From assembly GCF_029846175.1 (NCBI RefSeq), contig NZ_JARWAC010000006.1:62001-126000 (forward strand): 64,000 nt of DNA, given 5' to 3'. The notes beneath the pieces were generated by a model, which was not told where the DNA came from, ran no database searches, and worked only from the letters and a program-made list of their open reading frames with translations. Position numbers and translations under genes: made by a program. Shown here piece after piece: positions 5,561 through 19,632 of the stretch (positions are counted from its first letter, which is position 1; each line of letters starts with the position of its first letter). The DNA is from Sphaerisporangium sp. TRM90804. Its GTDB lineage: Bacteria > Actinomycetota > Actinomycetes > Streptosporangiales > Streptosporangiaceae.

Positions 5561-5665
5561 CGGCCGAGGCGGGCCGGACGCGCGAAGGCGCGCCGGGCAC
5601 ACGGGACTCGCGGCCCCCATCCGCCCCGCGCCCGCGGGGGGCCATCACGGCGAACACGAGATTGT

Positions 5666-5699
5666 GTTCTATGTATTGACATGATGTTTCATGTAATGG
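5666..5699 (+). promoter_or_regulatory. Operator A of the shared island motif, upstream of the symporter
   Basis: Read toward the symporter gene, this 34-bp stretch begins GTTCTATGTA and ends TTTCATGTAATGG. The same arrangement with the same orientation and nearly the same length occurs before the tautomerase (7508-7540) and kduI (10931-10964). The two half-sites TAYATRRAA are 20 bp apart on one face of the helix. A TTGACA (-35-like) lies between the halves, so binding would block transcription. IclR-family regulators encoded in the island are the obvious candidates; this is inference. Confidence 0.65.
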
Positions 5700-5733
5700 A
5701 ACCTCCATCCATCAACCGTTGGAAGGAGGACCG

Positions 5734-7230
5734 ATGTCCGCGCTCGACTGGTCCGTACTGGGGGCCTATTTCGTGATCATGGTCGCGATCGGGGTGTGGT
5801 CGAAGAACCGCATCAAGACCGTGATCGACTACTTCACGGCCTCCGGGAGGATCCCCTGGTGGCTCTCGGGGATCTCCCACCACATGTCGGGTTACAGCGC
5901 GGTCATGTTCGTCGCGTTCGCGGCCGTGGCCTACGACTACGGCCTCACCGTCTACGTGTGGTGGGCGATGACCATCGGCGTCGGCGTCGGCATCGGCGCC
6001 TTCCTGTTCGCCGCCCGCTGGAACCGGCTGCGGTCCAAGCACGGCGTGGTGTCACCGCTGGAGTACCTGACCAGGCGCTACAACCTGCCCACCCAGCAGG
6101 TGATGGCCTACAGCGGCGCGCTGCTGAAGGTGGTCGACATCGCCGCCAAGTGGGTCGCCATCGCGGTGCTGCTGAAGGGCTTCGCCGGCATCCCCATCCA
6201 GTACGGCATCGCGCTCACCGGCGTGGTGACGGTGATCTACGTGACCGTGGGCGGCCTGTGGGCCGACGTGCTGACCGACTTCGGGCAGTTCGTCATCCAG
6301 GGCGTGGCCGGCGTGGCGATGTTCGTGGCCGTCCTGGGCCAGCTCGGCGGCGTGCCCGCCCTGTGGACCATGTGGGACAGGCTGCCGGAGGGGCACGGCG
6401 ACCCGCTGACCGGGCCCTACACCGGCACCTACCTCCTGGCCTTCCTGCTGATCAAGACCTTCGAGTACAACGGCGGCATGTGGAACCTCGCCCAGCGGTA
6501 CATGAGCGCGCCGTCGGGCACCCAGGCCAAGAAGGCGGCGCTGCTGTCGAGCGCGCTGTGGCTGGTCTGGCCGCTGATCCTGTTCATCCCGATGTTCGCC
6601 GCGCCGCTGATCGTCCCCGGCCTCGCCGACTCCGACCAGTCGTACGTGCGGCTGGCGCAGGAGCTGCTGCCGGCCGGGCTGATCGGCCTGGTGCTCGCCG
6701 GGTTCTTCTCGCACACCATGGCGATGGTGTCCTCGGACGCCAACGTGATCTCCGCCGTGATCACCCGCGACATGCTGCCCGTGTTCGTGAAGCGGGTGCG
6801 CACGATGTCGGCCCAGGCGGCGCTGCGGCTGGCGCGGATCACCACGTTCGTCTTCGTGGCCACCAGCATGACGATCGCGATCGTCACCCAGGGCCAGGGC
6901 GTGGTGCTGAAGATCGTGGTGGACATCGTGGCCGCGACGATGGGGCCGATCTCGATCCCGCTCATGCTGGGCCTGCTGCCGTGGTTCCGGCGCAGCGGCC
7001 CCACGGCGGCCATCGTGTCCTGGGCCGCGGGCCTCGGCGTCTGGACCGTGCTCAAGTGGGTGATCGCCTCGGCGAACCTGACGCTGGTCGTCGCCGCGCC
7101 CCTGGTCACCTCGCTGATCCTCTACGTCGTCATCGGTTTCCTGCGGCCGGAGAACCGGCCCGACAGGGACGAGCTGATCGACTCCCTGGACGACGACGAC
7201 GTCTCCGGACGGCACACCGTCACGGCGTGA
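5734..7230 (+). CDS. Sodium:solute symporter (SSS/SLC5 family)
   Basis: A 498-residue polytopic membrane protein with about 13 hydrophobic segments spread over its length, fitting the SSS family, which couples Na+ influx to uptake of sugars, sugar acids or other solutes. The ATG at 5734 is preceded by a strong GGAAGGAGGA site 3 nt upstream; an in-frame ATG at 5719 lacks one. It stands alone on the plus strand, diverging from ftsK and preceded by the operator shared with the tautomerase and kduI. Uptake of galacturonate or a related uronate is therefore the likely role, but substrate specificity cannot be read from the sequence. Confidence 0.85.
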   Translation: MSALDWSVLGAYFVIMVAIGVWSKNRIKTVIDYFTASGRIPWWLSGISHHMSGYSAVMFVAFAAVAYDYGLTVYVWWAMTIGVGVGIGAFLFAARWNRLRSKHGVVSPLEYLTRRYNLPTQQVMAYSGALLKVVDIAAKWVAIAVLLKGFAGIPIQYGIALTGVVTVIYVTVGGLWADVLTDFGQFVIQGVAGVAMFVAVLGQLGGVPALWTMWDRLPEGHGDPLTGPYTGTYLLAFLLIKTFEYNGGMWNLAQRYMSAPSGTQAKKAALLSSALWLVWPLILFIPMFAAPLIVPGLADSDQSYVRLAQELLPAGLIGLVLAGFFSHTMAMVSSDANVISAVITRDMLPVFVKRVRTMSAQAALRLARITTFVFVATSMTIAIVTQGQGVVLKIVVDIVAATMGPISIPLMLGLLPWFRRSGPTAAIVSWAAGLGVWTVLKWVIASANLTLVVAAPLVTSLILYVVIGFLRPENRPDRDELIDSLDDDDVSGRHTVTA

Positions 7231-7247
7231 GCGCCGCCGTCGCCGGT

Positions 7248-7283
7248 ACGCGGCCGGAGGGGGAGGTCCCCTTCCGGCCGCGT
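7248..7283. terminator. Bidirectional terminator hairpin between convergent genes
   Basis: An almost perfect 17-bp inverted repeat (left arm 7248-7264, right arm 7267-7283, one G-T pair) lies between the symporter stop at 7230 and the tautomerase stop at 7298. It can serve both strands. No T-run is present, as is common for actinomycete terminators. Confidence 0.75.
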
Positions 7284-7297
7284 CGGCGTCCCCGCGG

Positions 7298-7483
7298 CTA
7301 CTTGTCCGACTCCAGGGTGCCGCCGTTGGCGACGTCGGACTTCTCGATCTCGGTGAAGACGATGCGCACCGACTCCCTGCGCGCCTTCAGGATGCCGATG
7401 GCCGCTTCGGTGACCGCCGCGACGAACTCGCGGCGCTGGTCCATCGTGCGACCCGACAGCAGTTCTACGGTGATGTTGGGCAT
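7298..7483 (-). CDS. 4-oxalocrotonate tautomerase-family protein
   Basis: The 61-residue product starts MPNITVELL, so removal of Met would expose the catalytic N-terminal proline of the 4-OT family. Length matches the short 4-OT subfamily, which works as a hexamer and interconverts keto and enol forms of 2-oxo acids. The ATG at 7483 follows GGAGGA; a start 4 codons upstream is less well placed. The gene reads away from operator B and is probably the gene it controls most directly. Its place in a pectin regulon suggests tautomerisation of a keto-deoxyuronate, but that substrate is inference and no such 4-OT role is known to me. Confidence 0.8.
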   Translation of the reverse strand: MPNITVELLSGRTMDQRREFVAAVTEAAIGILKARRESVRIVFTEIEKSDVANGGTLESDK

Positions 7484-7507
7484 GATGTCCTCCAATGTAC
7501 GGCTGTA

Positions 7508-7540
7508 CCGTTACATGAAATCAGAGTCCGCTACATGAAC
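7508..7540 (-). promoter_or_regulatory. Operator B of the shared island motif, between tautomerase and kdgK
   Basis: On the plus strand it begins CCGTTACATGAAA and ends TACATGAAC; the two TACATGAA half-sites start at 7512 and 7532, exactly 20 bp apart. CCRTTACAT is conserved in all three copies in the island. Orientation relative to the tautomerase matches sites A and C relative to their genes. The site also abuts the divergent kdgK ribosome-binding site, so it may control both genes. Confidence 0.7.
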
Positions 7541-7554
7541 AAAGGAGTCCGTCG

Positions 7555-8502
7555 TTGGACGTGATGGTGATCGGCGAGCCGTTGATCGAGTTCTCGGCGC
7601 CCGCCCCCCTGACCGAGGCGGACACCTTCCAGCTGTCCTTCTCCGGCGACGCGCTGAACGCCGCCGTGGCGGCGGCCGCGGCGGGGGCGCACGCCGCCCT
7701 GGTCACGTTCGTCGGCGACGACGAGTTCGGCGAGCGCCTGATCCGCTTCGCCGCCGGCCGCGGCGTCGACACCCGGTGGATGCGCAGGGGCGCCGGCTCC
7801 ACCGGCGCCTACGCCGTCGGCGCCGACCCCGGCGGCGACCGGGCCTTCGCCTACATGCGCGCGTGCAGCGCGGCCTCCCGCATGGGCCCCGCGGACCTCA
7901 CCGACGTGCCGCTCGGCGAGACGGCCGTGCTGCTCGTCTCCGGGATCACGTCGGCGCTGTCGGACTCCTGCGCCCGCGCCGTGCGGCACGCCGCCGCCAC
8001 CGTCCACGGCGCCGGCGGCGGCGTCGTCTACGACCCCAACTACCGCTTCCGGCTCACCGGCCCGCAGGCCGCCCGGGAGGCGCTGGAGGCGGTCGCCCCG
8101 TACGCCGCCCTGGTGACCCCCTCGTGCCCGGGGGACAGCGGGCCGCTGCTGGGAGCCGACGACCCGGAGAAGGCCGCACGAGCCTGCCTGGGGCTCGGCG
8201 CGCGCGCGGTGGCCGTCACCCTGGGGCCCGAGGGCGTCCTGGTGGGCGAGCGCGGCGCGGACGGCGTCCGGCTGCGGCGGGTGCCGGCGATCCCGGCACG
8301 GAAGATCGTGGACCAGACGGGGGCCGGCGACGCCTTCGCGGGCACGCTGGCCGCCCGGATGGCCGCCGGGGACGAGCTCGCCGACGCCGTGCGTGCCGGC
8401 ACGGCCGCCGCCGCCATCAGCCTGGAGGGACAGGGCGGCACCGGCCGCGTCGCCACCGGGGAGGAGATCAGGCGCCTGCTCGACGGGACGCGCTCGCCCT
8501 AG
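7555..8502 (+). CDS. kdgK: PfkB-family sugar kinase, probable 2-keto-3-deoxygluconate kinase
   Basis: The product would phosphorylate 2-keto-3-deoxygluconate (KDG) to KDPG, the common end of the isomerase route of pectin breakdown. The 315-residue length and the ribokinase fold fit. PfkB signature 2 is seen as DQTGAGDAFAG at 253-263, with the catalytic base D259, and GEPLIEF near the N-terminus is typical of KDG kinases. The start is TTG at 7555, 7 nt after AAAGGAG; GTG at 7561 and ATG at 7564 are alternatives. It diverges from the tautomerase across operator B. No KDPG aldolase is encoded nearby. Another ketose kinase specificity cannot be excluded. Confidence 0.8.
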   Translation: MDVMVIGEPLIEFSAPAPLTEADTFQLSFSGDALNAAVAAAAAGAHAALVTFVGDDEFGERLIRFAAGRGVDTRWMRRGAGSTGAYAVGADPGGDRAFAYMRACSAASRMGPADLTDVPLGETAVLLVSGITSALSDSCARAVRHAAATVHGAGGGVVYDPNYRFRLTGPQAAREALEAVAPYAALVTPSCPGDSGPLLGADDPEKAARACLGLGARAVAVTLGPEGVLVGERGADGVRLRRVPAIPARKIVDQTGAGDAFAGTLAARMAAGDELADAVRAGTAAAAISLEGQGGTGRVATGEEIRRLLDGTRSP

Positions 8503-8546
8503 CGCGGCCAGGTCTGGCCACGAACCGGGCCCCTCTGCCCGTCGCC

Positions 8547-9326
8547 TCAGCCCGCCGGGCGGGCGCGGGAGAAGGCCGTCCCCGGGGCGCCCAGGGCCAC
8601 CGAGACGTCCCGGGCCGTGGCCGCCACGACGGGGGCCAGCCGCTCCAGGGCGTCGGGCTCCATGTCCATGGCGAGGGTGGAGATCGAGATGCCGCCGAGC
8701 ACCCGGCCGGTGTGGTCGAAGACCGCCGCGCCGACGCAGCGGATGCCCGGCTCGTTCTCCTCGTCGTCCAGGGCGTAGCCGAGCGCGCGCACCTTGCCCA
8801 GGTGCGCCAGCAGCTCCTCGACGCCGGTGAGGGTGGCCGCGGTCAGGCGGGGCAGGCCGGTGCGGCCGGCGATCGCCCGCACCTCGTCGTCGTCCAGCTC
8901 GGCCAGGATCGCCTTGCCGATCGCGGTGCTGTGCAGGCGCAGGCTCATGCCCACCCGGGACGGCATCTGGTAGGGCCTGCGCCCCTCCAGCTTGTCGACG
9001 TAGACCGCCTCGTCGGCGCTGCGGATGCCGAAGTGGGTGGTGTAGCCGGTGCGCTCGTGCAGCGCCCGCAGGGCCGCCGACGCCTGCCGCGAGGGGTCGA
9101 AGCGGCTCATCACCTTGCCCGCCAGGGTGAGGATGCGCGGCCCCGGCTCGTAACCGCCCGCGCCGTCGGCACGGGCGAAGCCCCACTCGACGAGCGACTG
9201 CAGGATGCGGTGGACGGTCGACTTGGAGACGCCGGTCGCCGCGGCGATGTCGGTGACGCGGTGGTGCTCGGCGATAGCCTCCAGCACCGCCAGCGCCTTG
9301 TCGATGGAGCTGCCTTCCCTGACCAC
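8547..9326 (-). CDS. IclR-family transcriptional regulator (KdgR-like), first copy
   Basis: The 259-residue protein has an N-terminal winged HTH (about 8-60, with VSKSTVHRILQSL as recognition region) and an IclR effector-binding domain (about 75-250). Pectin pathways in other bacteria are controlled by the IclR-family repressor KdgR responding to KDG, so this is the best candidate to bind the CCRTTACAT operators. The gene lies 32 bp after kduD on the same strand and is probably co-transcribed with kduI-kduD. It also has its own TAGGCT hexamer 6 nt before the GTG start. Effector and target assignment are inference. Confidence 0.85.
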   Translation of the reverse strand: MVREGSSIDKALAVLEAIAEHHRVTDIAAATGVSKSTVHRILQSLVEWGFARADGAGGYEPGPRILTLAGKVMSRFDPSRQASAALRALHERTGYTTHFGIRSADEAVYVDKLEGRRPYQMPSRVGMSLRLHSTAIGKAILAELDDDEVRAIAGRTGLPRLTAATLTGVEELLAHLGKVRALGYALDDEENEPGIRCVGAAVFDHTGRVLGGISISTLAMDMEPDALERLAPVVAATARDVSVALGAPGTAFSRARPAG

Positions 9327-9332
9327 GCTCCG

Positions 9333-9338
9333 AGCCTA
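9333..9338 (-). promoter_or_regulatory. Candidate -10 of an internal leaderless promoter for the first IclR gene
   Basis: TAGGCT on the minus strand lies 6 nt before the GTG start at 9326, inside the 32-bp gap after kduD. The same gap contains a weak CGGAGC, so a leadered transcript from kduI is equally possible. Confidence 0.35.
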
Positions 9339-9358
9339 CTAACAGCGCGGCGGGAACA

Positions 9359-10105
9359 TCACCTGGCGAGCCAGCCGCCGTCCACGGCGAGCACGTGGCC
9401 GTTGACGTAGTCGGCGCCGCGCGAGGCGAGGAAGACGGCCGCGCCCGTGAGGTCCTCCGGCATCCCCCACCGCCCGGCGGGGATGCGGGCCCGGATCGCC
9501 GGCTCGCGCTCGGGGTCGGCCCGCAGGGCCCCGGTGTTGCCGGTGGCGATGTACCCGGGGGCGATGGCGTTGACCTGCACGCCGTACGGCGCCCACTCGC
9601 AGGCCAGGGCGCGGGTGAGGCCCGCGACGGCGTGCTTGGCCGCGGTGTAGCCGACGACGTTGACGCCGCCCTGGAACGAGAGCATCGACGCGATCATGAT
9701 GATCTTCCCGGCGCCGCGTTCGAGCATCGGCACGCCCACGGCCTTGCTGAGCAGGAAGGCGGCGTCCAGGTCGACGTCCATCACCGCCCGCCAGTCGTCG
9801 AAGGAGTGCTCCGCCGCCGGGGCCCTGCGGATGATCCCGGCGTTGTTGACCAGGATGTCGACGCGGTGCCGGGCGAGCAGCTCGCCGGCCGCCCGCCCGA
9901 GCAGCGAGACGTCCGACAGGTCGGCGATCCAGCGCCAGGCCTCCCTGCCGGTCTTGCGGACCTCGGCCTCGACCTCGTCCAGGTCGTCGCGGTGGCCGTG
10001 CAGGACGACGTCGGCGCCCGCCCGCGCCAGCCCCACCGCGATTGCCCGGCCGATGCCGGTGCGGGTGCCGGTGACCAGCGCCGTCCTGCCTTCGAGGCTG
10101 AACAT
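9359..10105 (-). CDS. kduD: 2-deoxy-D-gluconate 3-dehydrogenase / DKII reductase (SDR family)
   Basis: KduD reduces 2,5-diketo-3-deoxygluconate (DKII) to 2-keto-3-deoxygluconate with NAD(P)H. The 248-residue protein is a classical SDR: nucleotide-binding TGxxxGIG at 12-19, NNAG at 87-90, catalytic S140, Y153 and K157, and a C-terminal PGYIxT region. The start codon overlaps the kduI stop by one base (TGATG), which indicates translational coupling, and the kduI-kduD pairing supports the assignment over generic SDRs. The frame continues upstream through kduI but that extension is out of phase with a real gene. The first IclR gene follows. Confidence 0.88.
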   Translation of the reverse strand: MFSLEGRTALVTGTRTGIGRAIAVGLARAGADVVLHGHRDDLDEVEAEVRKTGREAWRWIADLSDVSLLGRAAGELLARHRVDILVNNAGIIRRAPAAEHSFDDWRAVMDVDLDAAFLLSKAVGVPMLERGAGKIIMIASMLSFQGGVNVVGYTAAKHAVAGLTRALACEWAPYGVQVNAIAPGYIATGNTGALRADPEREPAIRARIPAGRWGMPEDLTGAAVFLASRGADYVNGHVLAVDGGWLAR

Positions 10106-10917
10106 CACCGCATCTCGCCGATCGCGACCTGTTCCATGTCGTCGTAGGCCTGGTTCTCCCCGCCCATCGCCCAGACGAAGGAGTAGGCGCGGGTGCCGAA
10201 CCCGCAGTGCACCGACCAGGGCGGGGAGATCACGGCCTGGCGGTCGGCGACCATGATGTTGCGGGTCTCGTCCGGCCTCCCCATGAGGTGCACGACCCGC
10301 TGGCCGGCCGGGACGTCGAAGTACAGGTAGACCTCGGTGCGGCGCTCGTGGGTGTGGCAGGGCATGGTGTTCCACATGCTGCCGGGCTCCAGCACGGTGA
10401 CGCCCAGGACGAGCTGGCAGCTCTGGATGCCCTTGGCGTGGATGTACTTGTAGATCGTCCGGTCGTTGGACCCCTCCTGCGAGCCCAGCCGCACCGGCTC
10501 GGCGTCGTCCAGCCCGGCCCCGGCCGTCGGGTACTCGGTGTGGGCGGGGGTGGAGACCAGGTAGAAGGCCCCTCCCGCGAACGAGACCGCGCGGGCTCCC
10601 CTGCCGACGTACAGGCACTCCTTGGTGCCGAGCCGGTGCGGCGTGCCGTCGACGGTCACGGTGCCGGGGTCGCCGAGGTTGACCACCCCGAGCTCGCGGC
10701 GTTCGAGGAAGTACTCCGAGCGCAGCTCGCCGGGGCAGGGCAGCTCGATCGTCGTCTCCTGCGCCAGGGCGCCCCCGACGATGATGCGGTCCTCGTGGGA
10801 GTACACCAGGCGCACCTGCCCGGCGACGAACAGCTCCTCGGCCAGGAACCGGCTCCGCAGCCGGTCGGTCGTCATGCCGGGCACCTGGTCGGGTGCGGTC
10901 GCGTACCGTACCTCCAC
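10105..10917 (-). CDS. kduI: 5-keto-4-deoxyuronate isomerase
   Basis: KduI converts 5-keto-4-deoxyuronate (DKI), formed from unsaturated galacturonate, into DKII. The zinc ligands of the E. coli enzyme (H196, H198, E203, H245) map with identical spacing to H188, H190, E195 and H237 of this protein, counted from the chosen start. Two GTG codons at 10920 and 10917 could start translation; AGGAGG at 10922-10927 is too close to the first, so 10917 is preferred (270 residues). It is the first gene of kduI-kduD-iclR and lies immediately behind operator C. Confidence 0.93.
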   Translation of the reverse strand: MEVRYATAPDQVPGMTTDRLRSRFLAEELFVAGQVRLVYSHEDRIIVGGALAQETTIELPCPGELRSEYFLERRELGVVNLGDPGTVTVDGTPHRLGTKECLYVGRGARAVSFAGGAFYLVSTPAHTEYPTAGAGLDDAEPVRLGSQEGSNDRTIYKYIHAKGIQSCQLVLGVTVLEPGSMWNTMPCHTHERRTEVYLYFDVPAGQRVVHLMGRPDETRNIMVADRQAVISPPWSVHCGFGTRAYSFVWAMGGENQAYDDMEQVAIGEMR

Positions 10918-10930
10918 CACGCCTCCTATT

Positions 10931-10964
10931 CCGTTACATAGAATGCAATATTGCTATATAGAAC
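10931..10964 (-). promoter_or_regulatory. Operator C of the shared island motif, upstream of kduI
   Basis: Read toward kduI it begins GTTCTATATA and ends TTCTATGTAACGG, and is 34 bp like site A. The half-sites TACATAGAA (from 10935) and TATATAGAA (from 10955) are 20 bp apart. A possible promoter TTGTTC-N17-TTCTAT overlaps both halves, which points to repression. Confidence 0.7.
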
Positions 10965-11006
10965 AACCACAGGCGTGTGCGGTCAAGCGGCCGGGCCGGG
11001 CGGGCG

Positions 11007-11789
11007 CTAGTAGGTGCGGCGGACGCCTCGGGCGGCGACCTCGATGCGGTCGCGCGCCTCCAGCAGGCAGGCCGCGATCTCCTTGTCGCGGCCGGCGGTC
11101 AGCCGGGGAATCGGCACCGAGACGCTGACGGCGTCGCGCGGCGGGTAGGCGATGTCCAGCGCGACGCCGAAGCAGCGCAGGCCCTCGGTGTTCTCCTCGC
11201 GGTCGACGGAGTACCCGCGCTTGCGGATGCGGCGCAGGTCGGCCACGAGCTGCGCCTGCTCGACGATGGTGTTCTTGGTCAGCCGGGGCAGCGTCGCCGG
11301 CACCAGCCGCGCCACCTCGTCGTCGTCGCGGGTGGCCAGGATCGCCTTGCCGAGTGAGGTCGTGCTGGCCGGCAGGCGGCGGCCCACCCGCGTGAACGGC
11401 CGCAGGTAGTGGCGCGAGGCACGGGTGGCGAGGTAGACGACGTCGAAGTGGTCGAGCCGGGCCAGGTGGACGGTCTCCCCGGTGACCTCGGCCAGCCAGT
11501 CGAGCGCGTCGCGCGCGAGCTGCACCACCGGGTCGCCGTCGATGTACGTGGCGCCGACCAGCAGCGCCCGCATGCCTATGCGGTAAAGGGTGCCGGTGAC
11601 GTCGGTCTCGATCCAGCCGAGGTCGACCAGGGTGCGCAGCAGCGCGTGCAGGCTGCTCTTGGGGTAGCCGAGCTTGCCCTGCAGGTCGGAGAGACTGTGC
11701 AGACCGGGGTACTGGGCGAAGAAGTCGAGAAGCTCCACCGTGCGGACGGCGGACTTCACATGCGGCACAGCGATCCCCTGCTCGGTCAT
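11007..11789 (-). CDS. IclR-family transcriptional regulator, second copy
   Basis: The 260-residue protein has a winged HTH at about 12-65 (YPKSSLHALLRTLV as recognition region) and an IclR effector domain at about 85-250. It is clearly diverged from the IclR protein at 8547-9326, so the two are paralogues rather than a recent duplication. It begins 40 bp after udh, with AGGGAGGA before the ATG, and appears to be the last gene of an enolase-superfamily/udh/iclR operon. It may sense a galactarate-branch intermediate and control the ABC importer or kdgD, but neither effector nor operator can be assigned. Confidence 0.85.
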   Translation of the reverse strand: MTEQGIAVPHVKSAVRTVELLDFFAQYPGLHSLSDLQGKLGYPKSSLHALLRTLVDLGWIETDVTGTLYRIGMRALLVGATYIDGDPVVQLARDALDWLAEVTGETVHLARLDHFDVVYLATRASRHYLRPFTRVGRRLPASTTSLGKAILATRDDDEVARLVPATLPRLTKNTIVEQAQLVADLRRIRKRGYSVDREENTEGLRCFGVALDIAYPPRDAVSVSVPIPRLTAGRDKEIAACLLEARDRIEVAARGVRRTY

Positions 11790-11829: not shown

Positions 11830-12606
11830 TCAGGACTCGACAACGCGCCCACCCAGCCAGGCGTATTCGGGGTCGTCCTGATCCAGCTCGGGCATCCGAT
11901 CGGCGTACGGCTCCGCGTCGTCGCGCGGGTGGTAGCCGAGGGCGCGGCCGGGGCCGAGGTCCCACCAGTTGCGCGTGTTGGCCGACACGCCCCAGAGCAC
12001 CGCGTAGGTCAGCTCCGGCGCCGTCAGGCACGCGTGCATCAGCCGCACCATGTCGGCCGGGCTGATCCAGGTCGACAGCGTGCGCGCGTTCACCGGCTCC
12101 GGGCAGAACGAGCCGATGCGCAGCGACGCCACCCGCATGCCGTACCTGTCGGAGTAGTAACGGCCGAGCGCCTCGCCGTACGCCTTGGAGACGCCGTAGA
12201 GCGAGTCGGGGGCCACGGGGGTGTCCGGCGCCACCAGCTCCTGGCGCCGCGTGAAGCCCGCGGCGTGGTTGCTGCTGGCGAAGACGACCCGCTCGACGCC
12301 CGCGCGCCTGGCCGCCTCGAAGACGCGGTAGGTGGCGTCGATGTTGGCGCCGAGCACCTCCTCCCACCCCGCCTTGGGCGACGCGTTGCCGGCCATGTGG
12401 ACCACGGCGTCCACGCCCTCCACCGCCCGCGCCAGCACGGCCGGGTCGTCGACGTCCCCCACGATCGTCTCGTGGAGGGTGTCCTCGACGGGGCGCCTGT
12501 CGAGGAGCCGCAGCGTGTAGCCGTGTTCGGGCAGCCCCGCGGTCAGGCAGGTGCCGATCCTTCCGGCCGCGCCGGTCAGGAGTACGTTCTTCACGGTCTT
12601 CACCAT
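11830..12606 (-). CDS. udh: Uronate dehydrogenase
   Basis: Udh oxidises D-galacturonate or D-glucuronate with NAD+ to the aldaro-lactone, the first step of the oxidative uronate route. The 258-residue extended SDR shows GAAGRIG at 12-18, SSNHAAGF at 111-118 and the catalytic Y137/K141 pair; the SSNH and YGVSK motifs are characteristic of uronate dehydrogenases. The start overlaps the end of the upstream enolase-superfamily gene by 7 bp, so the two are coupled and probably act in sequence: the lactone made here is the predicted substrate of that enzyme. A generic NAD-dependent epimerase is the alternative. Confidence 0.85.
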   Translation of the reverse strand: MVKTVKNVLLTGAAGRIGTCLTAGLPEHGYTLRLLDRRPVEDTLHETIVGDVDDPAVLARAVEGVDAVVHMAGNASPKAGWEEVLGANIDATYRVFEAARRAGVERVVFASSNHAAGFTRRQELVAPDTPVAPDSLYGVSKAYGEALGRYYSDRYGMRVASLRIGSFCPEPVNARTLSTWISPADMVRLMHACLTAPELTYAVLWGVSANTRNWWDLGPGRALGYHPRDDAEPYADRMPELDQDDPEYAWLGGRVVES

Positions 12607-13751
12607 GTGGCAACCGTATGGGCGGCGACGTGGTCGAAGTCAAGATCGTCCCCGAGGCCGGGGCGTAACGGAAGCGTGACGTTCCCCGACTCCTCCAGCG
12701 GGTCGACGATGGAGCGCAGGTGCGGCGGCGGGGTGTCGTAGTCGGAGTGCGGGTGCAGCAGGCCGCGCTCGTACCACTCGCCGCACATCGTGGCCCCGAT
12801 GACGGCCAGCGCCCCCGAGCCGTTGCCGTGGATCTCGCAGCCCATGCCGAACGACTCGGCCGTGTGCACCGCCTTCAGGGCCGGGATGACGCCGCCCGAG
12901 CCGACCACCCCGACGCGCAGGATGTCGCAGGCGCCGGCCGCCACCCACTCGGCCCGCGCCATGTGCTTGCCCCAGGAGGTCTCCGGGCCGAGGATCGGCG
13001 TGGCCAGCTGCTCCGCCAGCCACCGGTACGACTGGACGGACGCCTCCTCCATCGGCTCCTCGTACCAGGCGAAGCCCAGCTCGTCGAGCGCCCGGCCGAG
13101 CCTGAGCGCGTCGGTGCGGCTGTACCAGTGGTTGCTGTCGAGCATGAGCGCGACGTCGGGCCCCACGGCCTCGCGCACCGCCGTGCACGCCTTGATGTCC
13201 AGGTCGACCCCGAACGGCATCGGCGGCATCCAGGTGTGCAGCTTGATCCCGCGGTAGCCGCGCGCGACCAGCTCCTTGGCGAAGTCGGCGTAGTCGGAGA
13301 AGGACGCGAGGCCGCCGGGGATGTCGTCGCCGCACATGGTGCTGGCGTAGGCGGGGATGGTGGCGCGCGCGCCGCCGAGCAGCTTCCACACCGGGACGCC
13401 GAACGCGCGGCCCGCCAGGTCCCACAGCGCCTGGTCGACGGTGCTGAGCAGGCGGTCGGTGAGGTGGCCGTGCGCCCCGCGCTGCCGCCGCGCGAGCGCG
13501 TGCCACAGGCGCTCGCGGTCGAGGCCGTCCTGGCCGACGAGCACGGGCCGGACATGGGCCTTGATCATGCTCTCCCTGAGGGTCTCCGCCTGCCCCAGGC
13601 AGTAGCCCTTGACGCCGTCGCTGTCGGTGATCTCCAGCAGCGCCTCCTGGACCTCGCGCGGCGGGCCCGGATGCCGGTGCCCGTGGCCGTCCACCACGGA
13701 CCGGATGACGGTGCTGAACACGGTGACGGTGACACGCTCGATGACGGCCAT
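12600..13751 (-). CDS. Enolase-superfamily enzyme, probable galactarolactone cycloisomerase or sugar-acid dehydratase
   Basis: The 383-residue protein has the mandelate racemase/muconate lactonising architecture: capping domain at 1-125 and a barrel with K170-x-H172, metal ligands D205, E231 and E257, and H308 in EIHGNGSG. K170 and H308 correspond to the general bases of this subgroup. The family opens or dehydrates aldarate derivatives. Coupling to udh on the 3' side suggests galactaro-1,4-lactone cycloisomerase (Gci), giving 5-keto-4-deoxyglucarate for the KdgD encoded at 17319. An aldarate or galactonate dehydratase cannot be excluded. AAGGAG precedes the ATG. Confidence 0.8.
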   Translation of the reverse strand: MAVIERVTVTVFSTVIRSVVDGHGHRHPGPPREVQEALLEITDSDGVKGYCLGQAETLRESMIKAHVRPVLVGQDGLDRERLWHALARRQRGAHGHLTDRLLSTVDQALWDLAGRAFGVPVWKLLGGARATIPAYASTMCGDDIPGGLASFSDYADFAKELVARGYRGIKLHTWMPPMPFGVDLDIKACTAVREAVGPDVALMLDSNHWYSRTDALRLGRALDELGFAWYEEPMEEASVQSYRWLAEQLATPILGPETSWGKHMARAEWVAAGACDILRVGVVGSGGVIPALKAVHTAESFGMGCEIHGNGSGALAVIGATMCGEWYERGLLHPHSDYDTPPPHLRSIVDPLEESGNVTLPLRPGLGDDLDFDHVAAHTVATW

Positions 13752-13761
13752 GACGCTCCTT

Positions 13762-13781
13762 CTCGTGCGACCTCGTGCGAC
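13762..13781. repeat. Tandem 10-bp direct repeat before the enolase-superfamily gene
   Basis: CTCGTGCGAC occurs twice back to back, 10 bp upstream of the start codon, on the same face one helical turn apart. It could be a regulator site or a slippage product. Confidence 0.4.
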
Positions 13782-13857
13782 TGGCGACGGCGCGCGGGGC
13801 GCCCCGGGGCGGGTGCCGGCCCGCCACGGCCGGCGCGCCCGGTGCGGAGCCGGCTCC

Positions 13858-13896
13858 GGGGCCCCCGCCCGTGGTCAGGTGACGGGCGCGGGCCCC
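13858..13896 (-). terminator. Hairpin between the ABC binding-protein gene and the enolase-superfamily gene
   Basis: A 15-bp stem with one C-C mismatch (arms 13858-13872 and 13882-13896, 9-nt loop) begins 29 nt after the binding-protein stop on the minus strand. It could terminate the importer transcript or protect its 3' end, partly uncoupling importer and enzyme expression. Confidence 0.6.
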
Positions 13897-13924
13897 GGGC
13901 CGCCGCCGGCCCCGCGGGCCGGGT

Positions 13925-15250
13925 CTAGTTGGAGTGGGACTTCTTCCACTCGGCCTGAGCCTCCGTGAGCATCTGGCCCATGGTGTCGAGGAACTCCTGC
14001 GGCTTCATCTGGCCCAGCAGCACCTTCTGGAACAGCGGCTCGGTGTCGGCCTTGGTGATGGAGGAGAACTGCGGCAGGTGGTAGGGCGGGGAGACGACGA
14101 CCGTGGCGGGGTCGGCCAGCACCTCGACGGCGCTCTTGAGGTAGGGGCGCTCGTCGATCCAGGCGTCCTGCTGGGCGTCCTTGTTCGCCGGGATCTGCCC
14201 GGTCTGCTGGTTCCAGTAGGAGTTGTTCTCCTTGGAGACCAGGAACTCGACGAACTTCCAGGCGGCTTCCTTGTGCTCGCTGTTCTTGAAGACGCCGAAC
14301 CCGTCGACCGGGTTGGCCACGATGGTGCGCTTGCCGGAGGCGCCGACCGGCAGCGGGTAGGCGTCGATCTTCTCGGCGCCGAACGCCTTGACGTGGTCGT
14401 TGTAGGACCCCAGGTTGTGGTGCATCATCGCGACCTTGCCGCTGGTGAACTGGGCCACCATCTTCGGGAAGTCGTTGGTGACGTCGGCCTCGGGCGTGGC
14501 CTTCTTGTACAGCGCGGCGATCTTGCCGACCAGCTCGGCGTTCGCGGGGTCGTTCACGGTGCTCTTGCCCGAGGCGTCGAAGAACTCCGTGACGCCGGAG
14601 TAGGCGTAGGCCTCGGCGAGGAGCTGGAAGATCGATCCGGCGCCGCCGCGGATGGTCCAGCCGTACTGGTCGGGCGTCTTGGTCAGCTTGCCGACGGCGG
14701 TGAAGAACTCGTCCCAGGTCTCGGGCGCCTCGACCCCGGCCTCGGCGAGCTTGTCCTTCTGGTACCAGACGACGTCGAGGTTGGAGGTCGCCGGCACCAT
14801 GTAGAGCTTGCCGTCGGGGGTGGCCTGCTTGACCGAGGCCAGCATGCTGTCGAGCACCTTGCCGTTCACCGCGCTGCCGGCGAGCCAGGCGTCGGCCGGC
14901 TCCAGCGCCTGCTGCCCGGTCAGGTTGGCCAGGTAGCTGGTGGTCACGCCGCCGACGTCGGGGGTCTCGCCGCCGGCGATGGCGGTGTCGTACTTCTGCT
15001 GCACCGAGGCGATCGGGATGCCCACGTACTCGACCTTGATCGTCGGGTTGGCCGCCTCGAAGCGCTTGATCAGCTCCTGGTAGATCGGGGTGCGCACGCC
15101 GCCGTTGTTGTCCCAGAACGTGATGGTGGTCGCGCCGGATCCCTCGCCACCCCCGCCGCCACCGCCGGAGTCGGACCCGCATGCCGCCGCGGTGACGCAC
15201 AGGGCGAGCGCGGCGACGGCCGCCGAGCAGACCTTCGTGATTCTTCTCAT
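13925..15250 (-). CDS. ABC sugar importer, solute-binding lipoprotein
   Basis: The 441-residue protein has a lipoprotein signal (basic start, hydrophobic core, lipobox AAAC with Cys24) followed by a Gly/Ser linker and a family 1-type extracellular solute-binding domain. It would deliver sugar to the two permeases encoded just upstream. Given the surrounding genes, galacturonate, oligogalacturonides or another uronide are likely ligands, but this is inferred from context only. The ATG follows GAAGGA. The upstream permease stop is 27 nt away, so all three genes form one unit. Confidence 0.88.
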   Translation of the reverse strand: MRRITKVCSAAVAALALCVTAAACGSDSGGGGGGGEGSGATTITFWDNNGGVRTPIYQELIKRFEAANPTIKVEYVGIPIASVQQKYDTAIAGGETPDVGGVTTSYLANLTGQQALEPADAWLAGSAVNGKVLDSMLASVKQATPDGKLYMVPATSNLDVVWYQKDKLAEAGVEAPETWDEFFTAVGKLTKTPDQYGWTIRGGAGSIFQLLAEAYAYSGVTEFFDASGKSTVNDPANAELVGKIAALYKKATPEADVTNDFPKMVAQFTSGKVAMMHHNLGSYNDHVKAFGAEKIDAYPLPVGASGKRTIVANPVDGFGVFKNSEHKEAAWKFVEFLVSKENNSYWNQQTGQIPANKDAQQDAWIDERPYLKSAVEVLADPATVVVSPPYHLPQFSSITKADTEPLFQKVLLGQMKPQEFLDTMGQMLTEAQAEWKKSHSN

Positions 15251-15277
15251 CTTCCGGTGTCCTTCTTTCGGGGGGTG

Positions 15278-16165
15278 CTATCCCTTCACGGCGCCGGCGC
15301 TCAGGCCGTGCACGAGATAGCGCTGGATCACGGCGAACACGAGCACGACGGGGACGGCGGCTATGACGCCGCCCGCCGCCAGGGCTCCGAAGTCGGCGCT
15401 GTACTCCCCGATGGTGTAGCTGAGGCCGACGGGGATCGTGAAGTTGTCCTGCCTGCTGATGAACATCAGCGCGAACAGGAAGGTGTTCCAGGTGTCGATG
15501 AACGCGAACGAGCCCACGGCGACGAGCCCGGGGCGCAGCTGGGGCAGCACGACCGCGAGGAACGCGCGGCCCCGGGTGCAGCCGTCGACCATCGCCGCCT
15601 CCTCCACCTGGAAGGGGACCGAGGAGACGAACCCGCTCATGAGGATGATCGACAGCGGCAGGTTGAAGACCGTGCCGGCGATCACCAGGCTCCACAGGGA
15701 GTTGATGAGCCCCAGGCCCTTGAAGATGGTGAACAGCGGGATCAGCATCATGGCGCCCGGGATGAACTGCGTGCACAGCAGCACGACCAGGAAGACCGTC
15801 CTGCCGCGGAAGCGGAACCGCGCCAGCGCGTAGCCGCCCATGAGCGCGATGCCCGTGGTGAAGAACAGCGACAGCACGCCGACGATCACGCTGTTCTTGA
15901 AGAAGACGGCGTACCCGATGTCATTCCAGACGGTGTCGAAGTGCTCGAAGGTGATCGGCCACGGCACCGGGGCGGTCGACCCCGTCGGCCGCAGCGCGAA
16001 CACGATCATCCAGTAGAAGGGGACGAGCGTGAACACCAGGTAGAGCCCGAGCGGGACGTACAGCCGCAGCACCCGCCCCCGGTCCTTGCGCGGGTCCTTC
16101 CGCGCGCCGGGCGGGGTGCCCGCCGCCGTCCGGGGACGGTCTCGCACGATGACCTCGGTCGCCAT
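15278..16165 (-). CDS. ABC sugar importer permease, MalG type
   Basis: The 295-residue membrane protein has about six hydrophobic segments and the cytoplasmic EAA loop (EEAAMVDG...LPQL) that contacts the ATPase. It belongs to the carbohydrate CUT1 permeases. Two starts are possible: ATG at 16180, overlapping the upstream permease stop by 4 bp, and ATG at 16165, preceded by GAGGGG at suitable distance; the latter is chosen. No ATP-binding gene is present in the operon, so a shared MsiK-type ATPase encoded elsewhere is expected, as in other actinomycete CUT1 importers. Confidence 0.87.
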   Translation of the reverse strand: MATEVIVRDRPRTAAGTPPGARKDPRKDRGRVLRLYVPLGLYLVFTLVPFYWMIVFALRPTGSTAPVPWPITFEHFDTVWNDIGYAVFFKNSVIVGVLSLFFTTGIALMGGYALARFRFRGRTVFLVVLLCTQFIPGAMMLIPLFTIFKGLGLINSLWSLVIAGTVFNLPLSIILMSGFVSSVPFQVEEAAMVDGCTRGRAFLAVVLPQLRPGLVAVGSFAFIDTWNTFLFALMFISRQDNFTIPVGLSYTIGEYSADFGALAAGGVIAAVPVVLVFAVIQRYLVHGLSAGAVKG

Positions 16166-16176
16166 GGAACCGCCCC

Positions 16177-17079
16177 TCATCCCTTGTGGTCCGCGCCGAA
16201 GCGGCTCAGCCGGAGGTACAGCAGCGAGCAGAACAGCAGGATCAGGAAGCCGGCCGTGGTGAGCGCCGACCCGTACCCGAAGTCCTTGGAGTCGATGGCC
16301 CGCTGGGCCACGTACAGGGGCAGGGTGGTGGTGGCCTGCGCGGGCCCGCCGCCGGTGAGGGTGTAGATCAGGTCCACGTTGTTGAACTCCCACACCGAGC
16401 GGAGCAGCGTGGCCAGCACGATCGCGTCGCGCAGGTGCGGCAGCGTGACGTGCAGGAAGCGGCGCACGCGGCCCGCCCCGTCCACGGCCGCCGCCTCGTA
16501 CAGCTCGCCGGGGATGCCCGCGAGGCCGGCGAGCAGCAGGATGGCGAAGAACGGCACGCCCCGCCACAGCTCGGTGATGACCAGGGCGCCGAAGACGGTG
16601 TCGGGGTTGCCGAGCACGGCCGCCTCCGGCGCGCCGAGGTAGCGCACGATTCCGGTCGTGGGGTTGTAGAGCAGGATCCAGATGCTGGTGGTGAGGACGC
16701 CGGAGACCGCCCACGGGGAGAACACCAGCGATCGGGCCAGCCCCCGGCCGATGAAACTTTCATTCACTATGAGCGCGAGCGCCAGGCCGAGGACGAGCTG
16801 CAGCACGATCTCCACGAGCACCCATTGGGCGGTGAAGCCCAGGCTGGACCAGAAGAGAGGGTCCTCGAACAGCATCTCCCGGAAGTTGTCCAGGCCCGCG
16901 AAGCCGTTGGCCCACGGCCTGGTCAGGTTGTAGTGCTGCAGGCTGTAATACAGAACGCTGCCGATGGGGTAGACGAGGAACACCGCGATCAGCACGACGG
17001 TCGGGGAGATCAGCAGGTACGGCGCCCAGCGCAGGGCCAGGGGGCGTCTCTCCGCCGAAGCTGTCCTCGCCAAGGTCAC
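16177..17079 (-). CDS. ABC sugar importer permease, MalF type
   Basis: This 300-residue permease has about six transmembrane segments and the EAA loop (EAAAVDGAG...LPHL). It is the first gene of the importer operon. The frame opens with GTG at 17106, but GTG at 17079 lies 7 nt after AAGGAA and gives the usual length, so 17079 is preferred. Upstream is a 13-bp palindrome at 17112-17124 that is different from the CCRTTACAT operator, suggesting that importer and kduI promoters answer to different regulators. Confidence 0.87.
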   Translation of the reverse strand: MTLARTASAERRPLALRWAPYLLISPTVVLIAVFLVYPIGSVLYYSLQHYNLTRPWANGFAGLDNFREMLFEDPLFWSSLGFTAQWVLVEIVLQLVLGLALALIVNESFIGRGLARSLVFSPWAVSGVLTTSIWILLYNPTTGIVRYLGAPEAAVLGNPDTVFGALVITELWRGVPFFAILLLAGLAGIPGELYEAAAVDGAGRVRRFLHVTLPHLRDAIVLATLLRSVWEFNNVDLIYTLTGGGPAQATTTLPLYVAQRAIDSKDFGYGSALTTAGFLILLFCSLLYLRLSRFGADHKG

Positions 17080-17111
17080 CTCGCGATTCCTTTCACGTTG
17101 CGACACGTTTC

Positions 17112-17124
17112 TGAACGACGTTCA
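17112..17124. promoter_or_regulatory. Palindrome upstream of the ABC importer operon
   Basis: TGAACG and CGTTCA flank a central A, giving a perfect 13-bp inverted repeat 33 bp before the chosen importer start. Candidate operator; binder unknown, the second IclR or a distant regulator being possible. Confidence 0.5.
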
Positions 17125-17268
17125 CAGATGTGGACGCGCCGTCAACGTAGGAACGCGGCCGGGGCACTGTCAAGCCTTCGGCAGGTAACCAAAGCATTTC
17201 GAAAGACCGTCGCCCGTGTTTCCGCCGCTCCCTTGACTGCCGCCTGCTTCGAGTCATACCTTCCCTGT

Positions 17269-17286
17269 GTTCATGTATATGAATAC
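17269..17286. promoter_or_regulatory. Variant of the island half-site as an inverted repeat, upstream of kdgD
   Basis: GTTCATGTATATGAATAC carries a perfect TACATGAA on the minus strand and TATATGAA on the plus strand, overlapping at the centre. The half-site matches those of operators A-C, but here the halves are inverted rather than repeated at 20 bp. It lies 33 bp upstream of the kdgD start. Confidence 0.45.
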
Positions 17287-17318
17287 AGTCCTTAGATATG
17301 TACACACGAGAGGACCGC

Positions 17319-18239
17319 ATGACTCCGCTGGCGGATCGACTCGACGGCCCGCTTTTCTTTCCCGTCACACCTTGCGACGCGCGGGAGCGGCTCAACATCG
17401 ACGTCTTTCGCGAGCACGTCCGGGAAGGCGTCGAGGCCGGCTGCGGTGCCGTGTTCGCCTGCTGCGGCACCGGGGAGTTCCCCTCGCTCAGCCTGGACGA
17501 CTACGCCGCCTGCGTCGCGGCGGCCGTGGAGGTGACGGCCGGCCGCGTGCCCGTGATCGCCGGCACCGGCTACGGCGTGGCACTGGCGTCACGGTTCGCC
17601 GCCACCGCGCGGGACGCCGGGGCCGACGGCCTGCTCGCGCTGCCGCCCTACCTCGTCCACGCCCAGCAGGAGGGGCTGCGCCGGCACTACGAGGCGCTTG
17701 CCGACTCCTCGCCGCTCCCGCTGATCCTCTATCAGCGCGACAACGCGATCTTCGACCCCGATACCGTCGTCGCCCTGGCGCGCCACCCGCGGATCGTCGG
17801 GCTGAAGGACGGGTACGGCGACCTCGACCTGCTGCAGCGCATCATCAGCGCCACCAGGTCCGCCTCCGTCGACCTGCTCTTCTTCAACGGGCTGCCCACG
17901 GCCGAGATCTCGGCGCTCGCCTACCGCGGGCTCGGCGTCACCCGCTACTCCTCAGCGGTCTTCTGCTTCCTCCCCGGTGTGGCCAAGCGGTTCTACCACG
18001 CCCTCGTGGGCGGCGACGACGCCACGGTCGGCCTGCTGATCGACGAGTTCTACCGGCCCCTGGTCGAGCTGCGCCGCCAGGGCGCCGGATACGCCGTCTC
18101 GCTGATCAAGACAGGGGTCAGGCTGCGCGGCCTGGACGCCGGGCCGGTGCGCGCCCCGCTGTGCGAGCCCGCGCCCGAGCACGTCAAGCGTCTCGGCGAG
18201 CTGATCGAGCACGTGCTGGAGCTCGTCGAGGAGCCTTGA
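17319..18239 (+). CDS. kdgD: 5-dehydro-4-deoxyglucarate dehydratase
   Basis: KdgD dehydrates and decarboxylates 5-keto-4-deoxyglucarate to 2-oxoglutarate semialdehyde. The 306-residue protein is a DapA-superfamily barrel with Schiff-base K163 in the segment VGLKDGYGD and the catalytic Tyr139 in LYQRDN; GLKDGYGD and YQRDNA are typical of this family rather than DapA. The ATG at 17319 follows GAGAGGA; seven codons upstream an in-frame ATG lacks a site. With udh and the enolase-superfamily gene it completes the oxidative route except for 2-oxoglutarate semialdehyde dehydrogenase, which is not in the window. The pectate lyase gene follows 58 bp later. Confidence 0.9.
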   Translation: MTPLADRLDGPLFFPVTPCDARERLNIDVFREHVREGVEAGCGAVFACCGTGEFPSLSLDDYAACVAAAVEVTAGRVPVIAGTGYGVALASRFAATARDAGADGLLALPPYLVHAQQEGLRRHYEALADSSPLPLILYQRDNAIFDPDTVVALARHPRIVGLKDGYGDLDLLQRIISATRSASVDLLFFNGLPTAEISALAYRGLGVTRYSSAVFCFLPGVAKRFYHALVGGDDATVGLLIDEFYRPLVELRRQGAGYAVSLIKTGVRLRGLDAGPVRAPLCEPAPEHVKRLGELIEHVLELVEEP

Positions 18240-18297: not shown

Positions 18298-19632
18298 TTG
18301 AGAACACCCGCGATCCTGGCGGCGGCGCTCCTTTGCGCGTCAGCGCTCGTCGCCGCCCCCGCGTCCGCCGCGGCGCCGCCGGGGGCCGACGGCTCCCGAT
18401 CGGGCGGGGCCGTCCCGCTCGGACGGCAGGTGCTGCCCGCCGGCGACGGCTGGGCGTCGGCGACCACCGGCACGACCGGCGGCTCGGCGGCCGACGCCGC
18501 CCACGTCTTCACGGTCACCGACCGCAAGGGGCTGGTCGCCGCGCTGGCCGGGGGCGACGCCACCCCCAAGATCATCTACGTCAAGGGTGAGATCGACGCC
18601 AACACCGACGACTCCGGCGCCCGGCTGACCTGCGACGACTACGCCGTCAACGGGTACACCACGCAGGGCTACCTCGCCGCGTACGACCCGGCGGTGTGGG
18701 GGCGCGACGCCGAGCCCTCCGGCCCGCTGGAGGACGCCCGCGCGGCCTCCGCCGCGAAGCAGACCGCGTGGATCCGGCAGAAGGTGGGATCCAACACCAC
18801 CATCGCCGGCCTCGGGCGCGCGGTGATCAAGGGCATGAACCTGCACGTCGACCAGGCCGACAACGTCATCATCCGCAACATCCAGTTCCGCGACGCCTAC
18901 GACTGCTTCCCCCAGTGGGACCCCACCGACGGCGACGAGGGCAACTGGAACTCCCTCTACGACAACATCTCGGTCACCCGCTCCACCCACGTTTGGGCCG
19001 ACCACAACGGCTTCGACGACGGCGCCAACCCCGACTCCGGGCAGCCGGTGTACTTCGGGCGGCCCTACCAGGTGCACGACGGCCAACTCGACGTCACCAA
19101 CGGCTCCGACCTGGTCACCATCTCGTGGAACCGGTTCGCCGACCACGACAAGACCATGCTGATCGGCTCCACCAACAACCCCGCCACCGACGCCGGCAAG
19201 CTGAACGTCACCGTGCACCACAACGCGTTCGACACCGTGCTCCAGCGGGCGCCGCGCGTGCGGTTCGGCCAGGTGCACGTCTACAACAACTTCTACGACG
19301 TGCCCTCCGGCGACGACTACGTATACGGCCTGGGCGTCGGCGTGCAGTCGAAGATCTACGCCGAGAACAACTTCGTCCGGCTGGGGCGGGGCGCCGGCGC
19401 CGACCAGATCATCTACGACTGGGGCGGCACCGCCGTGCACGTCACCGGCACCCTGGTGGCGAGCGGCGCGTCGGTGCGCCGCGTCGACCTGCTCGCCGCC
19501 TACAACGCCACCCACGACCCCGACCTGTCGGGGGACGTCGGATGGACTCCCACGCTGCACACCGGGGTGGATCACACCGCCCTGGTGCCGGTCGAGGTGC
19601 CGCTCTGGGCAGGCCCGGGCCGCCTGCGCTGA
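18298..19632 (+). CDS. Secreted pectate lyase (polysaccharide lyase family 1)
   Basis: The 444-residue protein begins with a Sec signal peptide (about 1-24, cleavage after ASA) and continues as a right-handed beta-helix lyase that splits polygalacturonate by beta-elimination outside the cell. Visible family features are VWADHNGFDDG (calcium-binding Asp) and RAPRVRFGQVHVYNNFYD, containing the catalytic Arg. The start is TTG, 5 nt after a strong AGGAGGT. It follows kdgD on the same strand and supplies the unsaturated oligogalacturonides that justify kduI/kduD. No GH88/GH105 unsaturated glucuronyl hydrolase is seen in the window. Confidence 0.92.
   Translation: MRTPAILAAALLCASALVAAPASAAAPPGADGSRSGGAVPLGRQVLPAGDGWASATTGTTGGSAADAAHVFTVTDRKGLVAALAGGDATPKIIYVKGEIDANTDDSGARLTCDDYAVNGYTTQGYLAAYDPAVWGRDAEPSGPLEDARAASAAKQTAWIRQKVGSNTTIAGLGRAVIKGMNLHVDQADNVIIRNIQFRDAYDCFPQWDPTDGDEGNWNSLYDNISVTRSTHVWADHNGFDDGANPDSGQPVYFGRPYQVHDGQLDVTNGSDLVTISWNRFADHDKTMLIGSTNNPATDAGKLNVTVHHNAFDTVLQRAPRVRFGQVHVYNNFYDVPSGDDYVYGLGVGVQSKIYAENNFVRLGRGAGADQIIYDWGGTAVHVTGTLVASGASVRRVDLLAAYNATHDPDLSGDVGWTPTLHTGVDHTALVPVEVPLWAGPGRLR

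Follow-up and report, generated by a model that had tools for sequence, protein, structure and literature searches.

The pectin/uronate island and its three M1 sites

The DNA analysed here, called the window below, is a 64,000-nucleotide stretch of the Sphaerisporangium sp. TRM90804 genome (contig NZ_JARWAC010000006.1, positions 62,001 to 126,000). It carries an island of genes for pectin and uronate use, among which lie three copies of an element that we designate M1 and treat as a predicted operator. The copies and the genes they face are:

5665..5702, minus strand: operator 1 (M1), upstream of the symporter gene; box A 5686-5702, box B 5666-5682
5734..7230, plus strand: SSF sodium:solute symporter (Pfam), predicted target of operator 1
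7298..7483, minus strand: 4-oxalocrotonate-tautomerase (4-OT) family protein, above the Pfam gathering score and below the NCBIfam cut-off; predicted target of operator 2
7505..7542, plus strand: operator 2 (M1), flanked by the starts of the divergent tautomerase and kdgK genes
7555..8502, plus strand: PfkB kinase "kdgK", best model 2-keto-3-deoxygluconate (KDG)/KDGal kinase with 133.2 bits (cut-off 400); predicted target of operator 2
8547..9326, minus strand: IclR1, last gene of kduI-kduD-iclR1; proposed M1 regulator
9359..10105, minus strand: kduD, 2-dehydro-3-deoxy-D-gluconate 5-dehydrogenase, 329 bits (cut-off 338.85)
10105..10920, minus strand: kduI, 5-dehydro-4-deoxy-D-glucuronate isomerase, 394.7 bits (cut-off 250)
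10928..10965, plus strand: operator 3 (M1), ahead of kduI-kduD-iclR1 at 7 nt from the kduI start

The names kdgK and kduD are those of the best models, both of which scored under their cut-offs. IclR1 has the two domains of the IclR family, PF09339 (9.7e-20) and PF01614 (6.7e-45), both above the gathering score.

Each operator spans 38 bp and consists of two 17-bp boxes at 20-bp spacing, and the three copies are near-identical. A sequence-only reading of this DNA had described three shared sites, each with two TAYATRRAA half-sites 20 bp apart. All three are present, with TAYATRRAA-like stretches at 5687-5695 and 5667-5675 (site 1), 7512-7520 and 7532-7540 (site 2), and 10935-10943 and 10955-10963 (site 3), in each case exactly 20 bp apart; the one departure is the second stretch of site 2, TACATGAAC, which is 1 base away from TAYATRRAA. 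The first stretch is overlapped by CCATTACAT in site 1 and by CCGTTACAT in sites 2 and 3. Because the motif runs further left (RTTC), box A, RTTCYRYTACAYRRAAY, is an imperfect palindrome, and the proposed half-sites are really the right arms of longer palindromic boxes. The sites face the symporter, tautomerase and kduI genes as that reading had it, and site 2 additionally faces kdgK. Operator 2 lies 21 nt from the tautomerase start and 12 nt from the kdgK start and, being close to both, probably serves both genes. Behind operator 3, kduI, kduD and iclR1 are closely consecutive on the minus strand; since iclR1 belongs to this run, IclR1 is probably autoregulated if it is the M1 regulator. Two IclR genes had been placed between the sites, which is correct for IclR1; IclR2 (11007-11789) lies beyond site 3. 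As a separate observation, terminator-like hairpins at 5652-5669 and 10964-10985 reach the outer edges of operators 1 and 3 (4 such hairpins in the stretch scanned, compared with 0.9 in shuffles).

The element is specific to these places. Shuffles of the window gave 0 matches to the composite motif, and TAYATRRAA occurs 5 times in the window against a shuffle mean of 0.03. In the whole genome (8.3 Mb, 86 contigs, 98.9% completeness), a 34-mer pattern at up to 3 mismatches found the three island sites only, with 0 matches to the reversed control; the many random hits that would have undermined the proposal did not appear. A single box, RTTCYRTTACATRRAAY, at up to 2 mismatches returned the three sites and three further 2-mismatch matches, which were dismissed because the control gave 2. 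No M1 match was found in a scan of viral contigs.

Conservation of M1 and its association with IclR1

To follow M1 across relatives, we used two collections. The first scanned 297 genomes of the family for the exact two-half-site pattern; this search was not conditioned on IclR1 and is independent of the weight matrix described below. It yielded 20 sites in 17 genomes, and the reversed control yielded 0. IclR1 is present in 11/11 Sphaerisporangium genomes and, at E<=1e-100 among the best 8 candidates scored per genome, in 53 of the 297. The exact pattern was found in 17 of these 53 vs 0 of the other 244 (Fisher p 1.7e-14, which overstates the evidence because related genomes are not independent). 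In the window and 16 fetched loci (~19-20 kb each), every exact site lies upstream of the symporter gene or kduI (kdgK in reduced islands), and IclR1 adjoins an M1 site in 17/17. Profile R1, drawn in part from positive genomes, detected sites at E<=0.1 in 16/16 IclR1-bearing and 0/6 IclR1-lacking genomes, all within the island. Genes to which we give the provisional names ftsK and ribonuclease J (rnj) flank the island, singly or together, in 15 of the 17 site-bearing genomes; neither label occurs within the fetched stretches of L048 and L052. Four reduced Sphaerisporangium islands (L072, L022, L023 and L024) keep IclR1 and kdgK together with an M1 site; none has a kduI or symporter match, and kduD is fragmentary in L072.

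The second collection was made by an IclR1 search of genome contigs (best 80 of 117), so that IclR1 is present by construction. M1 recurs from Sphaerisporangium to Actinoplanes, upstream of the symporter, tautomerase/kdgK and kduI-kduD-iclR genes, and all 42 loci with IclR1 of at least 73% identity have at least one M1 site above 20 bits. The sites are, as predicted, kept in relatives having the same genes. Above 25 bits there are 103 distinct sites in 101 scanned sequences (some overlapping, e.g. L080 and L019), a count that is not independent because the matrix was trained on 21 of those sites; for 102 of them an expected gene (symporter, kduI, tautomerase or kdgK) is no more than 400 bp away. 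The remaining one is a strong site (L048 542-579, 54.7 bits) that has no adjoining symporter match.

Alignment of 97 of the 102 assigned sites gave the following class consensuses, which we examined for symmetry against 1000 column permutations:

symporter class (n=34): RTTCYRYTACAYRRAACRnnnTGTCAATACATRGRACR
kduI class (n=29): RTTCYRYTACAYRRAAYnnnnnnYYGCTAYATRGAACA
tautomerase/kdgK class (n=34): GTTGCRTnACATRAnAYCAnATTCCRYTACATGRAACA

Box A symmetry was 0.605 in the pooled sites, a value matched by 0/1000 permutations; by class, 0 (symporter), 8 (kduI) and 8 (tautomerase/kdgK) permutations reached the observed value. Box B is significantly symmetric in the tautomerase/kdgK class only (5/1000). 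The 20-nt direct repeat is present in every class (0.55-0.62 vs 0.16-0.38 at other offsets). The operators sit close to their genes: of the 29 kduI-class sites, 23 end at most 13 nt from the kduI start as matched, and of the 24 sites that face kdgK, 21 end at most 17 nt from its match. Read in the direction of the symporter gene, operator 1 contains TTGACA (5676-5681, + strand), as do 32 of the 34 symporter-class operators. This hexamer would be expected if M1 were a conserved promoter element, a sigma-factor site and not an operator. We give that explanation hardly any credence: box A is symmetric, TTGACA occurs in 0/29 kduI-class and 0/28 tautomerase-class sites, and M1 is confined to its island places genome-wide at up to 3 mismatches.

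IclR1, not IclR2, is the likely partner of M1, judging from co-occurrence and from genomes that have M1 without IclR2. Of 21 genomes searched, 10 have an IclR2 orthologue (at least 80% identity), and all ten belong to Sphaerisporangium (10/11 of the genus). The remaining 11, which make up 11 of the 17 site-bearing genomes, have M1, and their IclR2 match is either none at E<=1e-40 or at most 49% identical. That IclR2, or both IclR proteins, binds the three M1 sites is improbable. In its favour, the iclR2 gene ends 41 bp from operator 3, its product shares 37% identity with IclR1 across 198 aligned residues, and 10 of the 11 Sphaerisporangium genomes have it; the 11 M1-bearing genomes without an orthologue speak against it, as does a different palindrome, M2 (below), which lies in the iclR2-operon promoter region in 7 Sphaerisporangium genomes and, in two g6 loci, close to an IclR2-like gene. 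Binding of M1 by a regulator encoded elsewhere and common to these genomes is very improbable, given that M1 co-occurs with IclR1, that it matches the IclR-family consensus (see the last section) and that iclR1 stands in the run behind operator 3.

What the DNA itself shows is that the sites exist, how they are built, that they are conserved and that they co-occur with IclR1. We consider it likely that the three M1 sites are operators of IclR1, encoded last in kduI-kduD-iclR1. Paired 17-bp boxes at 20 bp, or two helical turns, would suit a dimer of dimers on one face of the DNA. IclR1 would bind and repress over the promoter/start region, because operator 1 overlaps the conserved TTGACA and operators 2 and 3 abut ribosome-binding/start regions. 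Release might be triggered by KDG or 5-keto-4-deoxyuronate, both of them intermediates in the breakdown of unsaturated uronates. The predicted targets are the symporter (uptake), the tautomerase, KDG kinase, KduI, KduD and IclR1 itself.

Several results pull the other way. Among loci with IclR1 of at most 69% identity, M1 above 20 bits is present in just 2/38. The exact pattern is absent from 36 of the 53 IclR1-bearing genomes (looser sites were read in some of them), and the IclR1 count itself depends on the best 8 candidates per genome. The weight matrix was built from 21 sites that it later found, and profile R1 is likewise partly self-trained. For box B, 162 of 1000 permutations reach the observed symmetry among symporter-class sites, 532 among kduI-class sites and 64 in the pooled set, none of which is significant. 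A sigma-70 scan of the stretch found no promoter, so the reading of TTGACA is only suggestive.

Two observations concern more distant relatives of IclR1. Upstream of Kribbella kduI, where IclR1 is about 50% identical, the GTTC-N9-GAAC boxes and 3-bp gap are kept around a different core (by eye; L130 was scored). In an Actinomadura locus (L120 6551-6588), a full GTTC-N9-GAAC palindrome lies just upstream of the gene for an IclR1 relative (69%), which suggests that this relative is autoregulated; the 17-kb locus has no kdu match.

An unlinked site, the tautomerase and the second palindrome M2

A profile of 34 sites, operator 2 included, was searched against the strain's own genome. All of the island sites came back, together with a fourth match at 108000-108036 of contig C25 (E 3e-4) and a fifth (E 2.66). 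About 40 bp separate the fourth from the downstream aldehyde dehydrogenase gene (L208 8603-9958), whose best NCBIfam model, alpha-ketoglutaric semialdehyde dehydrogenase, scored 375 bits, under its cut-off of 770. A CBM2-PL11 rhamnogalacturonan lyase gene (L208 11624-13900) is 1.7 kb away. The dehydrogenase gene is present in 10/11 Sphaerisporangium genomes. In the 130 bp upstream, 5 of the 10 orthologues (G000, G001, G005, G007 and G010) have a tandem score of 17-18/20, G003 and G002 reach 16 and 15, and G006, G008 and G009 remain at 13-14, the level of shuffles; a score of 17 was reached by 6/2000 shuffled stretches. This comparison is post hoc, because the scoring key was loosened after the sites were known, and in G002, G003 and G010 the best-scoring placement differs from the tandem picked by eye. 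No IclR1 or IclR2 homologue was found near the gene in six 16-kb stretches from relatives or in 20 kb of the own genome. The genome scan that the sequence-only reading had proposed for extra sites gave one, at a plausibly related aldehyde dehydrogenase, which probably belongs to the IclR1 targets. The claim that one operator defines a regulon by sequence agrees with its uniqueness, its conservation and this extra site. Alpha-ketoglutaric semialdehyde dehydrogenase serves the hydroxyproline and galactarate pathways. A match to the dihydrodipicolinate synthase (DHDPS) family precedes the dehydrogenase in 5 of 6 fetched relatives, and in several so does a C-terminus that we take, by eye, to be hydroxyproline-epimerase-like. 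In relatives, the dehydrogenase gene appears to be part of a hydroxyproline-degradation operon.

The 61-aa tautomerase was matched in 32 of the 42 loci with IclR1 of at least 73% identity, and in many Kribbella loci (79-97% identity). Its N-terminus is Met-Pro, and Arg occupies the residues numbered 11 and 39 in 4-OT. The opening step of the unsaturated uronate is otherwise attributed to KdgF. On grounds of chemistry and synteny, the co-regulated tautomerase may perform this enol-keto step in place of KdgF; among the matches listed from the kduI/KdgF literature, the word "tautomerase" is absent.

The rest of the island, which also encodes an ABC solute-binding protein (SBP), may be under IclR2 through a second palindrome, M2:

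11007..11789, minus strand: IclR2, proposed regulator of M2
11830..17106, minus strand (that of iclR2): perm1-perm2-SBP-enolase-superfamily-udh, the putative M2/IclR2 unit; the permease names come from reading
17120..17135, plus strand: M2 GTTCACAGATGTGGAC, near perm1, conserved
17269..17284, plus strand: M2 GTTCATGTATATGAAT, upstream of kdgD, conserved
17298..18239, plus strand: kdgD, 5-dehydro-4-deoxyglucarate dehydratase (PRK03620 401.6, cut-off 278; TIGR03249 296.3, cut-off 373.95)
18298..19632, plus strand: pectate lyase (PF00544), downstream of kdgD

The best model for udh is Azf (174.4 bits vs a cut-off of 400), and gene context points to this Azf-like dehydrogenase being a uronate dehydrogenase. 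The enolase-superfamily dehydratase best matches L-talarate/galactarate dehydratase (116.8 bits vs 500). M2 comprises two conserved even-length palindromes, GTTCAYRNNYRTGRAY, in the perm1/kdgD region. It occurs in 7 Sphaerisporangium genomes, between perm1 and kdgD in five (G000, G001, G003, G007 and G009), between perm1 and pieces matching pectate lyase in G010, and upstream of udh-iclR2 in G005, as one exact and one 1-mismatch copy. G004, which has no IclR2, lacks M2. In genus g6, loci L048 and L052 (= L101, Streptosporangium subroseum) have M2 and an IclR2-like gene (45-49%) near perm/kdgD; L050 has an IclR2-like gene (48%) beside kduI and no M2. On balance we lean slightly towards IclR2 acting through M2. 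Two facts speak against this pairing as the full explanation, namely the absence of M2 from some IclR2-bearing genomes and its lack of specificity. In G002, G006 and G008, which encode IclR2, the region upstream of udh holds no M2 copy even when 3 mismatches are allowed; at up to 1 mismatch, the sole match in their fetched loci is in G006, ~5 kb from udh. Searched by itself, M2 gives 12 strand-matches across the own genome (control 0), of which two fall at the island. The 73 loci of the best-80 set from outside Sphaerisporangium contain 4 exact matches, two near perm1/udh in L101 and single ones in L129 and L146.

Tentatively, the two paralogues may split Sphaerisporangium pectin catabolism, with IclR1 and M1 governing the KduI-KduD-KdgK branch and the unlinked alpha-ketoglutaric semialdehyde dehydrogenase, IclR2 and its even-length palindrome governing oxidative galacturonate use by Udh and KdgD, and the tautomerase perhaps being KdgF-like. 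The island offers a testable pectin/uronate regulon for less-studied actinobacteria, ties an uncharacterised tautomerase to the pathway, and provides, in adjacent IclR paralogues of which one is assigned to a motif, a natural pair for discrimination of odd- and even-length palindromes.

Comparison with known IclR operators

Among the literature matches listed, titles and abstracts describe no such pectin/uronate regulon in these actinobacteria. One counterpart is KdgR of gamma-proteobacteria, likewise an IclR-family protein, which controls pectin and oligogalacturonate use. Its motif, RWWGAAACGNCGTTTCAKKA, belongs to group 2 and has its two arms in the opposite order to M1 (Suvorova and Gelfand 2021, PMC8222616). 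IclR1 (164.9 bits) and IclR2 (109.3 bits) both fall under the cut-off of 275 bits of KdgR model NF011671. No KdgR-type site of the N1 form, TGRAACA-N1-TGTTYCA, occurs in the window under 3 mismatches; at 3 mismatches there are two (chance mean 0.84), one overlapping operator 1. The sequence-only reading was right that the motif is unlike that of KdgR. The three-box operators of PcaU, PobR and HmgR share with M1 the IclR family and more than two half-sites per operator, whereas M1 has two tandem 17-bp boxes 20 bp apart (PMC8222616).

The closer likeness is to IclR group 1, whose GTT-11-AAC operators, with the palindrome GTTYCRYW3RYGRAAC, occur as tandem copies with centres 18-22 nt apart (PMC8222616). 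M1 shares the position near the start and the sugar-acid targets common in the subgroup, and box A of operator 1 is 1 mismatch from the consensus. Its 20-nt direct repeat, present in all three site classes, falls within the published spacing; as a second palindrome, box B is significant in the tautomerase/kdgK class only. The fit is weaker at operator 2 (3 mismatches). Two points here tell against our assignment: box A of operator 3 is more than 3 mismatches away, and at up to 3 mismatches the consensus has 5 matches in the window vs 1.6 in shuffles. By this consensus, M1 fits the form of a group 1 operator, clearly so at operator 1 only. The operator type is already known, and the pectin regulon appears to be a new example of it.

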